Positions 10,315 to 15,166 of a stretch of DNA of 33,775 nucleotides are shown here, piece after piece (position 1 is the first letter of the stretch; every line of letters starts with the position of its first letter). The position numbers were made by a program, and so were the translations under genes. The notes below the pieces were generated by a model, which worked only from the letters and a program-made list of their open reading frames with translations, did no database searches and had not been told where the DNA came from. The stretch spans positions 1 to 33,775 of the forward strand of contig JALOLC010000027.1 of NCBI GenBank assembly GCA_025456175.1, written 5' to 3'. Origin of the DNA: Acidobacteriota bacterium (lineage in GTDB: Bacteria; Acidobacteriota; Aminicenantia; UBA2199).

Positions 10315-10803
10315 TCACGTTTTTCCGTGGGCCGGATGGTCTCCGCCGTGAGCCATGGCGCGGCCGTGCTCCATGACGCCGGCCAGCAGCGTGGCGCAGA
10401 GCTCCGCGCCGGGCAGCGAACCAGGAAAATTGACGATCAGCGTGCGCCCCTTCATGCCGCTGTAGGCGCGGGAAAAAACGGCGTGCGGGGTCTCGCGCAG
10501 CGATTCGCGGCGCAGCCATTCGCTGAGCCCGGGAATCTCGCGGTCGCACAGGCGGGCGCAGGTCTCGGGGGTGATGTCGCGCGGCGAGAGGCCGGTGCCG
10601 CCGCAGGTCAGGATATAGTCGCGGTCCAGGCGTTCCGTGATCGCCGCGGTGATCGCCTGCGCCTCGTCGGCGACGACCGCCATGGCGATGTCGGCGTCGG
10701 GGAACTTCGCCGCGAGTATCTCCCGGATGCGCGGCCCCGACAGGTCGGCATAGGCGCCGGCCGCGGCCCTATCCGAGACGGTAATCACCGCTATCTTGAG
10801 CAT
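10315..10803 (-). CDS. mogA: MogA/MoaB family molybdenum cofactor biosynthesis protein
   Basis: KIAVITVSDRAAAGAYADLSGPRI, ILTCGGTGLSPRDITPE, VNFPGSLPGAELC. Confidence 0.9.
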   Translation of the reverse strand: MLKIAVITVSDRAAAGAYADLSGPRIREILAAKFPDADIAMAVVADEAQAITAAITERLDRDYILTCGGTGLSPRDITPETCARLCDREIPGLSEWLRRESLRETPHAVFSRAYSGMKGRTLIVNFPGSLPGAELCATLLAGVMEHGRAMAHGGDHPAHGKT

Positions 10804-11206
10804 GGATCCTCCCTCCCTTGAGCACGCGGGCGAAGATGCCCTGCCGGGGCATGATGCAGTCGCCGACGGCGGCATAGATGGCGCAGCGGTCGTGGCACTC
10901 CTTGCCGATCTGGGTGATTTCCAGCTGAGCCTCGCCGATCACGATGGCCTCGCCCGCGTGCGCCTGCGTCCAGTCCACGCCGCGGGTGACGATGTTCTCG
11001 CCGAAGGCGCCGGGAGCCAGGGCCAGACCCTTGGCGCGCATGGTGTCAATGGCTTCACCGGCCAGGAGCGAGACCTGGCGGTGCCAGGGACCGGCGTGGG
11101 CGTCGCCCTCGACTCCATGTCCGGCGCGCAGGACGATCTCAGCGACCTCAATCTTCGCAACGCCCTTTTCCGCGGCGATGCAGACGGCTTCAACCGTGAA
11201 TCTCAT
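10769..11206 (-). CDS. MOSC domain-containing protein
   Basis: HGVEGDAHAGPWHRQVSLLA, PGAFGENIVTRG, GEAQLEITQIGKECHDRC. Confidence 0.9.
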   Translation of the reverse strand: MRFTVEAVCIAAEKGVAKIEVAEIVLRAGHGVEGDAHAGPWHRQVSLLAGEAIDTMRAKGLALAPGAFGENIVTRGVDWTQAHAGEAIVIGEAQLEITQIGKECHDRCAIYAAVGDCIMPRQGIFARVLKGGRIHAQDSGDYRLG

Positions 11207-11645
11207 CCTTGCTCTTCTCCAGCAGGGCGATGGCGCCGATGATCATGTTCTTGTCGACCGCCTTGCACATGTCGTACAGGGTCAGGGCCGCGACGCTGAC
11301 GGCGGTCAGCGCCTCCATTTCGACGCCGGTCCGGCCCTCGCAGACGGCCGTGGCCACGATCTCGACGCCGTCGGCCACGATGTGGAACTGGACGTCCAGC
11401 TGCTGGATGGCCAGCGGGTGGCAGAGGGGGATCAGCTCCGCCGTCTTCTTGCCGGCCTGGATGGCGGCGACGCGGGCCACCGCCAGGGCGTCGCCCTTCT
11501 GCAGGCGGTTCTCCTGCAGCAGCTCCAGGGTGGCCGGGGCCAGGATGATCTTGCCGCCGGCGACCGCCCGGCGCTGACTGTTCGGCTTGAGGCTGATATC
11601 GACCATGCGCGCTTTCCCCGAGTCGTCAAGGTGGGTCATTTTCAT
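11190..11645 (-). CDS. moaC: Cyclic pyranopterin monophosphate synthase
   Basis: MVDISLKPNSQRRAVAGG, KKTAELIPLCHPLAIQ, GRTGVEMEALTAVSVAALTLYDMCKAVDK. Confidence 0.96.
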   Translation of the reverse strand: MKMTHLDDSGKARMVDISLKPNSQRRAVAGGKIILAPATLELLQENRLQKGDALAVARVAAIQAGKKTAELIPLCHPLAIQQLDVQFHIVADGVEIVATAVCEGRTGVEMEALTAVSVAALTLYDMCKAVDKNMIIGAIALLEKSKDEIHG

Positions 11646-12464
11646 CTATCCTCCTATCTGCCAGTTGCCGCGATTGGCGCAGACGCTGCCGCGGGCGGGC
11701 TTGGCGGCCGCGGCCTGCATCAGGCTGGCGCGGATGTCGCTGAAGTCCACCGCGATCTCGCGGTCGGAAAACAGGCAGGGCTTGAGCTTGCCGTCCGCGG
11801 TGAGGCGCAGGCGGTTGCATACGCGGCAGGAAAGGGGCCTCTCGGCATCCAGCGCGCCCGGCGATGGTTGGGATGTCCTCAGTTCGTGCAGGCTGTAATG
11901 ATGGATGCGCTGCAGCCGCAGCCCGTTGCCACGGCAGAATTCCCTCAGTGCTTCGACCTCGCCGTCGTTGAAGCCGGGGATCAATACCATGTTGATCTTG
12001 GTCTGGGCGAAGCCGGCCGCGGTCGCGGCGCGGATGCCCGCCAGCACCTGGCCGATATCGCCGCCGCGGGTGACCTGCCGGTATTTCTCCGCGTCCAGGG
12101 TGTCCAGCGAGATGTTGAGGCGGTCCAGCCCCGCCCGCTTGAGCTCCCCGGCCAGTGGCGCCAGCAGCGTGCCGTTGCTGGTCAGGCTCACCTCGCCGAT
12201 CCCCGGCACGGCTTTGAGCTCGCGGACCAGGAAGGTGATGTTCAGGCGCAGCAGCGGCTCGCCGCCGGTCAGGCGCACCTTGCCTATCCCCAGCCCTACC
12301 GCCGCGGCGACCACGCGGGTGATCTGTTCGTAGGAGAGGATGTCGGCATGGTCCTTCAGGCGGATGCCCTCCGCCGGCATGCAGTAGGTGCAGCGCAGAT
12401 TGCAGCGGTCGGTCACCGAGACGCGCAGGTAGTCGATCTGGCGGTTAAAGGAGTCGAACATCAA
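11646..12464 (-). CDS. moaA: GTP 3',8-cyclase, compact (272 aa)
   Basis: LRVSVTDRCNLRCTYCMP radical SAM motif, RLTGGEPLLR, CRVCNRLRLTADGKLKPCLF second cluster, C-terminal IGG. Confidence 0.95.
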   Translation of the reverse strand: MMFDSFNRQIDYLRVSVTDRCNLRCTYCMPAEGIRLKDHADILSYEQITRVVAAAVGLGIGKVRLTGGEPLLRLNITFLVRELKAVPGIGEVSLTSNGTLLAPLAGELKRAGLDRLNISLDTLDAEKYRQVTRGGDIGQVLAGIRAATAAGFAQTKINMVLIPGFNDGEVEALREFCRGNGLRLQRIHHYSLHELRTSQPSPGALDAERPLSCRVCNRLRLTADGKLKPCLFSDREIAVDFSDIRASLMQAAAAKPARGSVCANRGNWQIGG

Positions 12465-13707
12465 CGCGGCTCCCGGCGGCGATCTCTTTCTGGCCCGTCG
12501 GCACCTGCAGCAGGCCGTTGGCCCGGGCCAGGGCGTGCAGGTGCGCCGAGCCGTGGTAGGAAACGAGTTCCGCCTTGCCGTGGCGCAGGATGACCGGGAT
12601 AAAAACCGTCCGCTCGCCGTTGCCGCGGCGGAAGGGGGAGGTCAGGGTCGCCTGCTGCCGGAGCGGCAGATCGTTGTTGCCCATCATCCGCTGCAGCAGG
12701 GGCTTGATCAAAACCTCGAAGATCACGAAGGTCGAGACGGGATTGCCGGGCAGGCCGAATGCGCACGGACCGGCAGCGGCCGTCCCCTCGTGGGACTGGC
12801 CGGCTGGGGCCGTCCCCTCGTGGGACTGGTCGGCCCGGGTGGAGAAAACCGTGGGCATGCCGGGCTGGACGGCGATCTTCTCGAAGTGCGGGGTAAAGCC
12901 CACGCTCCTCATCGCCGCCGGCACGTGGTCGAAATCCCCGGCCGAAACCCCGCCGGAAATGATCAGGATGTCGCATGCCTCCATGGCGGCGTTGATGGCC
13001 TCGGCCGTGGCCTCCGCGTCGTCCGCGACCCGCCCCAGCAGCACCGGCACCGCTCCCGCTTCCCGCGCCTGGGCCGAGAGCGAATGGGAGTTGCTATCGT
13101 AGATCCGTCCCGGCGCGAGCGGCGTGCCGGGATCGGCCAGCTCCGAGCCGGTGGTGATGATGCCCACCCGGGGGCGTCGGGCCACCGTGGCCTCGGCGCT
13201 GCCCAGCGAGGCCAGCAGCGCGACCTGGGCGGGCCGCAGGCGCACGCCCGCGGCTAGGACCAGCTTGCCCGCCGGCAGGTCCTCGCCCTGGCAACGGACG
13301 TTCACGTGGAGGTCCTGGGCCACGATCCTCATGAGGCCGTTCTCCTCGGCCGTGCATTCGCGCCGGACCACCCGGTCGGCGCCGGAAGGCATCATGGCCC
13401 CGGTCATGATCTTCGCGCATTGGCCAGGCGTAATAACGACCCGCGGCGGCGTGCCGGCGGCGATGGTCTCCACGACACGGAAAGCCGGGGAGGTGTCGCC
13501 GGAAATATAGGCGTAGCCGTCCATGGCCGACTTGTTGAATTCGGGGATGTCGCGGGGAGAAAACACGTCTTGGGCCAGGAAGCGGCCGGCAGCTTCCGCC
13601 AGCGGCACCATTTCGGGTGCAGGCGAGACCGGGAAGCTCATGATGGCCTTTTCCGCTTCCTCCAGGCTGATCATGGGTTTGGCCGTTATCATAAGGTTCT
13701 CGGGCAT
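12445..13707 (-). CDS. moeA: Molybdopterin molybdenumtransferase
   Basis: DIPEFNKSAMDGYA, KIMTGAMMPSGADRVV, IITTGSEL, IISGGVSAGDFDHV, FGLPGNPVSTF; start may be internal (MISLEEAEKAI). Confidence 0.95.
   Translation of the reverse strand: MPENLMITAKPMISLEEAEKAIMSFPVSPAPEMVPLAEAAGRFLAQDVFSPRDIPEFNKSAMDGYAYISGDTSPAFRVVETIAAGTPPRVVITPGQCAKIMTGAMMPSGADRVVRRECTAEENGLMRIVAQDLHVNVRCQGEDLPAGKLVLAAGVRLRPAQVALLASLGSAEATVARRPRVGIITTGSELADPGTPLAPGRIYDSNSHSLSAQAREAGAVPVLLGRVADDAEATAEAINAAMEACDILIISGGVSAGDFDHVPAAMRSVGFTPHFEKIAVQPGMPTVFSTRADQSHEGTAPAGQSHEGTAAAGPCAFGLPGNPVSTFVIFEVLIKPLLQRMMGNNDLPLRQQATLTSPFRRGNGERTVFIPVILRHGKAELVSYHGSAHLHALARANGLLQVPTGQKEIAAGSRVDVRLL
12781..12840 (-). repeat. Two 30-bp units in frame inside moeA (10-aa repeat QSHEGTAxAG)
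   Basis: cgtcccctcgtgggactgg at 12781 and 12811; each contains GTCCC-CTCGT-GGGAC hairpin potential. Confidence 0.85.
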
Positions 13708-13739
13708 CTATTGCAGTGAATGCTCTGTGTCTGCATCGT

Positions 13740-13838
13740 TTCTCCTTTCCAATCGGGGAGGCTGGGCTGTTTCCGGCCCGGCCCTGGCGGTCCATACGCC
13801 TAGCCCGGTATGGGTTGCAGGCCTATGAACTCGGAGAA
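13740..13838 (-). promoter_or_regulatory. Probable molybdenum (or tungsten) cofactor riboswitch upstream of moeA
   Basis: Leader RNA TTCTCCGAG...GGCCTGCAACCCATACCGGGCTAGGCGTATGGACCGCCAGGGCC GGGCCGGAAACAGCCC AGCCTCCCCGATTGGAAAGGAGAA; closing stem TTCTCC/GGAGAA, nested CCATAC/GTATGG and GGGC/GCCC stems; upstream of a Moco operon. Confidence 0.72.
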
Positions 13839-13843
13839 GCTGC

Positions 13844-13872
13844 ATCGTAGCAAAAAGCAGGCCGAAAAGCAA
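13844..13872 (-). promoter_or_regulatory. Sigma70-like promoter for moeA operon
   Basis: Minus strand TTGCTT (13872-13867), N17, TACGAT (13849-13844). Confidence 0.65.
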
Positions 13873-14013
13873 GTGCCGACGCCGTTTCCCCATCCTGATC
13901 CCGCCATGGCCCGCGCCGCCCATGCTGGGCAGGGCCAAGGCCTGAAAAAATTGATTTTCCGAATTCTCTAATCTTGTCGGTAATCTACACTGATTATCGC
14001 GGTTGCGGGCATC

Positions 14014-14042
14014 TTGACAATGCCGGCGCCTTGCGCTATATT
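14014..14042 (+). promoter_or_regulatory. Near-consensus sigma70-like promoter for the zincin gene
   Basis: TTGACA 14014-14019, N17, TATATT 14037-14042. Confidence 0.8.
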
Positions 14043-14128
14043 CACCCCTCGCTCCCTTGATCAAGCAAGACTGCCGGTGACTTCCGCCCAATCCCTGAGT
14101 TTCAGGCTGACAAGGCTCGAGAGAAGCT

Positions 14129-15166
14129 ATGAGCGCCAAGACCATTCGTTCACTTGTGCAGAGCTGGGAAACCGTGCGTTTCGAGCTGCTGAACCGCCGC
14201 ATCTCCGAACTCAACCTGAATCTCTCCGGTTCGCCGGCAGAGGTTTTCGTCCGCCGCCTGCACCGGGAGATGGAGGCCAAGGGCTTCCGTTTCAAGCCCA
14301 CCGTGTATCTCACCGACAGCTGGGGCTGTCCCGACCGCTCCCCGGTCATCGGCATCCCGTTCTACCTGGCCGATGACCGCCTGGCCCGGATCGAGGAGGA
14401 GCAAACGGGGGAGATCGAGGACGACAAGCGCATCATGGCCCTGCTGCGCCATGAGGCCGGCCATGCGGTGAACTACGCCTACCGGCTCTGGCGCCGGCCG
14501 GGATGGGAGGGAGTCTTCGGGCGCTTTACCCGCCCCTACCGCGATTTTTTCCGTCCCGACCACCTGAGCCGCGAGTATGTCCGGCATATCTCGGTCCCCC
14601 CGCACGGACGCACCTACGCCCAAAAGCATCCCGACGAGGATTTCGCCGAGACGTTCGCCGTCTGGCTGACGCCGCGCTCCGGCTGGCGTTTACGCTACCG
14701 CAACTGGCCGGTGCTGGCAAAGCTGCTGTTCGTTGACAAGCTGATGAAGGAAATCCGCCGCCGCGCCCCTGAGAATTCCAGGCTGCGCCTGCAGCGGCCG
14801 GCGGCGGCCATGAACCTCCTGCTTGCCGACCATTACGGAAAGAAGGCGGAGCGCTTCCGGCGCGCCGCCCGCGGCTATGTCGATGACCGGCTCCGCGAGG
14901 TCTTTCCTCCGCCCCGCGGCGCCATGCTGCGGCCGGCCTCCGAGCTGTTCCGCAAGCTCCACGCGCGCCTGCTCGAGCGCGTCGTCCTCTGGTCGAAGCT
15001 GAGCGAGCCCGAGGCCGCGGCCATTCTGCGCAAGCTGGAATCGCGCTCCAAGGTCTTGAAACTGTCCTACCGTCCCGGTCAGGAGGGGGAAAGGACCATG
15101 GATGTCGTCTCGCTGGCCGTGGCGATGGCCCTGGACTACGCTTATACCGGGCGCTTGACCGGCTGA
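14129..15166 (+). CDS. Putative zinc-binding metallopeptidase (zincin)
   Basis: LLRHEAGHAVNYAYRL (HExxH) and downstream HPDEDFAETFAVWL glutamate motif. Confidence 0.78.
   Translation: MSAKTIRSLVQSWETVRFELLNRRISELNLNLSGSPAEVFVRRLHREMEAKGFRFKPTVYLTDSWGCPDRSPVIGIPFYLADDRLARIEEEQTGEIEDDKRIMALLRHEAGHAVNYAYRLWRRPGWEGVFGRFTRPYRDFFRPDHLSREYVRHISVPPHGRTYAQKHPDEDFAETFAVWLTPRSGWRLRYRNWPVLAKLLFVDKLMKEIRRRAPENSRLRLQRPAAAMNLLLADHYGKKAERFRRAARGYVDDRLREVFPPPRGAMLRPASELFRKLHARLLERVVLWSKLSEPEAAAILRKLESRSKVLKLSYRPGQEGERTMDVVSLAVAMALDYAYTGRLTG

Follow-up and report, generated by a model that had tools for sequence, protein, structure and literature searches.

Analysis of a 33,775 bp stretch of DNA (hereafter the window) from an uncultured bacterium of the Candidatus Aminicenantes lineage revealed, at the head of a moeA-moaA-moaC-MOSC-mogA operon, a newly found member of the known Moco/Tuco riboswitch family that lacks stem P3. 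We consider it fairly likely that this RNA is an OFF riboswitch, probably sensing the tungsten cofactor, whose output is relayed to moeA via a mini-ORF located directly behind its closing stem P1.

When the whole window was compared by cmscan with all 4227 Rfam families, RF01055 was the sole hit exceeding its Rfam gathering score (58.2 bits against a gathering score of 36, E = 1.2e-11), which bears out the original prediction, made from the sequence letters, of a Moco/Tuco riboswitch ahead of moeA. The match covers the full model length (positions 1-135) with 13 model positions around P3 deleted, which agrees with the P3-lacking, Tuco-associated class that the original prediction had put forward for testing, an assignment that is itself a correlation (PMC2408646). 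The predicted closing stem, TTCTCC paired with GGAGAA over a span of 99 nt, was recovered at its exact coordinates as P1.

Covariation was counted on the Rfam consensus structure projected onto the window, using an alignment of the 14 moeA-linked copies within the genus. In this alignment 86% of the cells are paired, compared with 34-60% for slid controls, and compensatory changes are present in the related genomes, with 12 pairs changed on both sides compared with 6.2 in shuffles (0 of 500 shuffles were equally high). The pairs of P1, outer P2 and P4 are 90-95% kept in the 13 relatives. P1 hardly varies, and the covariation evidence therefore rests on P2, of which the outer seven pairs (13830-13824/13796-13790) are 93% kept and six of eleven pairs show changes on both sides, and on the GAAA-capped stem P4. 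Minimum free energy folding of the longer leader did not produce the plain P1. The original prediction had listed four pairings, of which the closing stem stands, while GGCCTG/CAGGGCC and CCATAC/GTATGG do not belong to the structure, with just 35-50% of their pairs kept in the 13 relatives. The hairpin GGGCCGGAAACAGCCC is located at 13779-13764 and AGCCTCCCCGATTGGAAAGGAG at 13763-13742. The string ACGATGCAG does occur twice (13848-13840 and 13739-13731); it is not kept in the relatives and was rejected as a functional repeat, and its duplication looks like a coincidence.

Table 1. Features of the riboswitch region and its operon (window coordinates), and of the repeat found at the P3 site of related aptamers (locus and genome:contig coordinates).
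Feature	Position	Strand	Remarks
Promoter	13844..13872	-	-35 TTGCTT 13872-13867, 17-nt spacer, -10 TACGAT 13849-13844; exact match
Moco/Tuco riboswitch aptamer, P3 absent	13726..13848	-	cmscan, RF01055
P1 5' strand (TTCTCC)	13833..13838	-	pairs with 13740-13745; 95% of pairs kept in relatives
P2 5' strand	13820..13830	-	partner 13790-13800
P2 3' strand	13790..13800	-	partner 13820-13830
P4, GAAA-capped stem	13759..13784 (13784-13774 / 13769-13759)	-	90% of pairs kept; both-side changes in 6/11 pairs
P1 3' strand	13740..13748	-	GGAGAA (13745-13740) invariant in 14 aligned copies
Mini-ORF (uORF) MQTQSIHCNRCPRTL, 15 codons	13689..13736	-	stop TGA overlaps moeA ATG as ATGA (13692-13689)
moeA (MoeA/Glp-type molybdotransferase)	12445..13692	-	NCBIfam MoeA/Glp models, E 1e-90 to 1e-91, under curated cut-offs
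moaA (short, about 272 aa)	11646..12464	-	TIGR02666, E 2.9e-80, slightly below cut-off
moaC	11190..11645	-	TIGR00581, over its cut-off
MOSC-domain protein	10769..11206	-	matches MOSC part of PRK14499
mogA/moaB-type molybdopterin adenylyltransferase	10315..10875	-	TIGR00177, over its cut-off
Palindromic repeat at P3 site	L063 G005:C17:7824-7895; L066 G012:C49:9312-9384		

The TTGCTT-N17-TACGAT promoter of the original prediction, whose -10 element lies 5 nt before TTCTCC of P1, was found exactly where it had been placed, and its position is supported by the 13 relatives. Because these share TTGACC (where the window has the weak TTGCTT), a 17-nt spacer, an extended -10 and a constant distance to P1, transcription likely starts at the foot of P1, in line with the start predicted on the closing stem. 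A consensus promoter scan did not list the promoter of the window, its -35 being too weak. An additional transcript could arise from a further promoter-like site of this strand at 14020-13993, and a near-consensus promoter, TTGACA-17-TATATT, is located on the plus strand at 14014-14042, serving a divergent gene at 14129 that weakly matches a zinc metallopeptidase family.

The window's own genome, comprised of 188 contigs and 73.5% complete, contains two copies of the RF01055 RNA, and both precede genes for the Mo/W cofactors or their metals: the moeA operon, and a TupA-like gene directly downstream of the second copy. The nearest relatives of the MoeA protein are from metagenome-assembled genomes, labelled mostly Candidatus Aminicenantes or Acidobacteriota. 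The moeA start at 13692 was fixed by an alignment of 13 proteins. The MoeA of the window has, around residues 287-306, an insertion of 20 residues with the internal repeat QSHEGTA present twice, which is absent in 12 relatives and possibly represents a dispersed repeat inside the gene. For the mogA/moaB-type gene, the real start is probably at 10803, with GGGAGGGAGG ahead of it.

The control mechanism had been left open in the original prediction because moeA lacks an obvious Shine-Dalgarno sequence. Its anti-SD duplex indeed reaches just -3.0 kcal/mol, so that moeA hardly has a Shine-Dalgarno itself, and the likely answer is the mini-ORF that overlaps moeA. AAACG separates the GGAG of P1 from the mini-ORF ATG, and AAAGGAG (13742-13748) in the 3' strand of P1 doubles as the mini-ORF Shine-Dalgarno, with an anti-SD duplex of -7.1 kcal/mol. 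The reading frame (ATG CAG ACA CAG AGC ATT CAC TGC AAT AGA TGC CCG AGA ACC TTA TGA) is out of frame with moeA and ends at its start codon, and the ribosome-binding site in P1 does not serve the first structural gene.

This arrangement recurs in the genus, in 12 of the 14 moeA copies (the window and 11 other genomes): an ATG or GTG located 5-8 nt after GGAG starts a 12-18-codon ORF, and the stop of this ORF begins -10 to +8 nt relative to the moeA start. The Shine-Dalgarno of the mini-ORF has a strength of -7.1 kcal/mol in all 12, and that of moeA ranges from -3.8 to +1.9 kcal/mol. The start-to-start distance is 43, 46 or 49 nt (all 1 mod 3) in 11 copies and 44 nt in the window, whose frame thus differs from the other 11, yet its stop also meets the moeA start. 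Among the two exceptions, G001 has an ATG after P1 from which the frame runs into moeA as an in-frame fusion, and G005 (L076, about 1611, G005:C139) lacks an ATG or GTG where one would be expected; an ATA is found there, with the frame open into moeA. An ATA also follows P1 in L003 (about 1958, G000:C154), in frame with tupA, where other copies have ATG; in both loci it may be a weak AUA start codon or a sequence error. There was no sign of a conserved peptide in the mini-ORF, the differences being equally distributed over the three codon positions (236/234/211), and a leader peptide with conserved residues, such as the CNRC of the window, was rejected on the same grounds. The features that are kept are therefore the start, the open frame and the position of the stop.

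Under the proposed mechanism, which is the simplest reading of these features, the aptamer would be stabilised and P1 would close when the cofactor is plentiful; this would hide the GGAG in its 3' strand, and the mini-ORF would therefore not be translated. With the mini-ORF silent, moeA would remain untranslated as well. When the cofactor is scarce, P1 would open, allowing ribosomes to load on the GGAG and translate the 15 codons; after terminating at the ATGA, they would reinitiate on moeA and the rest of the operon. Since the end of the mini-ORF overlaps the start of moeA, the ribosome itself seems to carry the signal across.

The second riboswitch locus of the genus is mostly positioned ahead of a gene for a TonB-dependent receptor (called by Pfam in G008, by sequence resemblance in the others), and in two genomes ahead of a gene of unknown family. 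An exact ATGA overlap was found in seven of the 11 copies examined (G003, G004, G006, G008, G012, G013 and G014); in the remaining copies the frame extends into the gene (G011), opens directly into it (G005) or stops earlier (G001 and G015). The overlaps at this locus strengthen the case made by the moeA copies. The gene downstream has a Shine-Dalgarno of its own at this TonB-receptor locus, unlike moeA, and most or nearly all copies carry a CCTCC arm able to mask it, which pairs with this Shine-Dalgarno in folds without the P1 3' strand. We regard the chances as even that one genus has rewired a tungsten-cofactor riboswitch at both loci, moeA and the usual TonB-receptor locus, such that the closing stem would control only a relay ORF without a conserved peptide. 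The stop of this ORF would hand the ribosomes on to the real gene, and the switch would therefore work by termination-reinitiation. The mini-ORF looks like a derived feature of the genus, because, among copies from the other families of this class, nearly all that have a start behind P1 read from it directly into a long gene.

Several further observations were made on aptamers of this class. In two species, a dispersed palindromic repeat about 73 bp long (Table 1) occupies the P3 position in the second Moco riboswitch. A dozen or more copies of this repeat are found in each of the two genomes (G005 and G012), and a repeat-derived hairpin replaces P3 in an otherwise P3-less aptamer. Genes resembling those for TonB-dependent receptors directly follow Moco-family riboswitches in several Aminicenantes families (L043, by Pfam; L075, L035, L041, L064 and others, by sequence resemblance), which suggests a role in bringing tungstate, molybdate or a chelate of either across the outer membrane. 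At four loci (L059, L061, L086 and L206) the aptamer is followed by an apparent intrinsic terminator, GGGCATGC...GCATGCCC and then a T-run. These seem to represent a transcriptional platform, and with them the class seems to comprise at least three types of platform. No intrinsic terminator that could act as platform was found within 13600-14150 of the window.

The recurrence of the mini-ORF has to be weighed against a rival reading, an ordinary riboswitch in which P1 sequesters the ribosome-binding site, the mini-ORF is incidental, access of ribosomes to the region near P1 is decisive, and moeA initiates alone from its weak Shine-Dalgarno once the leader unfolds. P1 holds the ribosome-binding site in this manner in E. 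coli moaA (PMC2408646), the peptide is not conserved, and chance would account for some of the stop placements: when the spacers were dinucleotide-shuffled and the frame was taken at random, 23-67% of the trials at a given locus gave an ORF ending near moeA (p 0.23-0.67), which is not rare. Only the whole set is improbable, with a product across the 12 loci of 10^-5.6, a figure that ignores relatedness; the genomes are related, and the effective independent lineages are therefore fewer than 12, so that the statistical support is moderate. We nevertheless judge this reading unlikely, as moeA lies 52-61 nt from GGAG across the genus without a good Shine-Dalgarno, the frame and stop placement are kept despite these varying spacer lengths, and the sole departures are in-frame continuations into moeA. 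Control by alternative base pairing between the P1 3' strand and a downstream anti-sequestor, to which translation of the mini-ORF would contribute little, appears highly improbable. At the second locus CCTCC has two possible partners, the P1 3' strand and the Shine-Dalgarno of the gene, and G017, G018 and G023, from other genera, have a complement of the P1 3' strand in the form of CTCCTTCC or CCTTTCC, but no such complement was found in the moeA leader of the window, nor is one common to the moeA leaders of the genus.

As for the ligand, the original prediction had proposed to look for tungsten or molybdenum enzymes and transporters elsewhere in the genome, and this search points to tungsten as the cofactor metal. 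Enzymes of the AOR family are encoded in 15 of the 16 genomes of the genus, and AOR-family genes are present in the window's own genome as well. A TupA-like tungstate-binding protein was found in 13 of the 16, with matches below the curated cut-off of the family, which also holds for the TupA-like gene under the second riboswitch. ModA was found in none of the 16 genomes, whereas the same model was positive in 11 of 14 control genomes. In a related genus, a P3-less Moco riboswitch (L052, G026:C13) is located directly ahead of a gene for aldehyde ferredoxin oxidoreductase, a tungsten enzyme family, which provides supporting evidence for the Tuco reading. Enzymes of the DMSO-reductase family, which can use Mo or W, are encoded in 16 of 16 genomes, and as potential molybdenum users they would fit Moco as the ligand, a change under which the relay through the mini-ORF may still hold. 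Sequence cannot decide between the two cofactors, given that the link between P3 and Tuco is correlative, but the absence of P3 and of ModA, the presence of TupA-like and AOR genes, and the RNA directly before an AOR gene in the related genus make Moco a doubtful candidate; the aptamer probably senses the tungsten cofactor.

If true, relay by the ribosome would be an expression platform new to the Moco/Tuco family, and no previous description of a Moco riboswitch with a uORF relay was found in open-access papers. Such a relay is one answer to the question of how a gene without a ribosome-binding site can be under riboswitch control. In a lineage that has genes for tungstate uptake but lacks ModA, the P3-lacking aptamers are also well suited to testing the 2008 proposal that loss of P3 corresponds to sensing of the tungsten cofactor.

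The RNA described here resembles the P3-lacking class of RF01055 (PMC2408646) in its aptamer, the absent P3, the genes served and the ribosome-binding site within P1, but differs in that this site serves a 15-codon ORF overlapping moeA and not a structural gene; Candidatus Aminicenantes is absent from the groups that the 2008 abstract names (PMC2408646). With the Moco RNA of E. coli moaA it shares the ribosome-binding site inside P1 and the proposed OFF switch acting on translation, whereas in E. coli P3 is present and the RNA acts on moaA directly, without an ORF in between. The closest precedent for the relay model is the B12 riboswitch of M. tuberculosis ppe2, where expression by termination-reinitiation from the uORF uPPE2 was demonstrated experimentally (PMC11260477). 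Both would combine an OFF riboswitch with a gene without a Shine-Dalgarno and an AUGA overlap with the uORF; the aptamer and ligand are different, and the masking element is separate in M. tuberculosis, while here the Shine-Dalgarno is in the aptamer's own closing stem (PMC11260477). With the Moco/Tuco family, the kind of uORF relay reported in M. tuberculosis would extend to a second riboswitch class unrelated to the first, which suggests that this design arises repeatedly.
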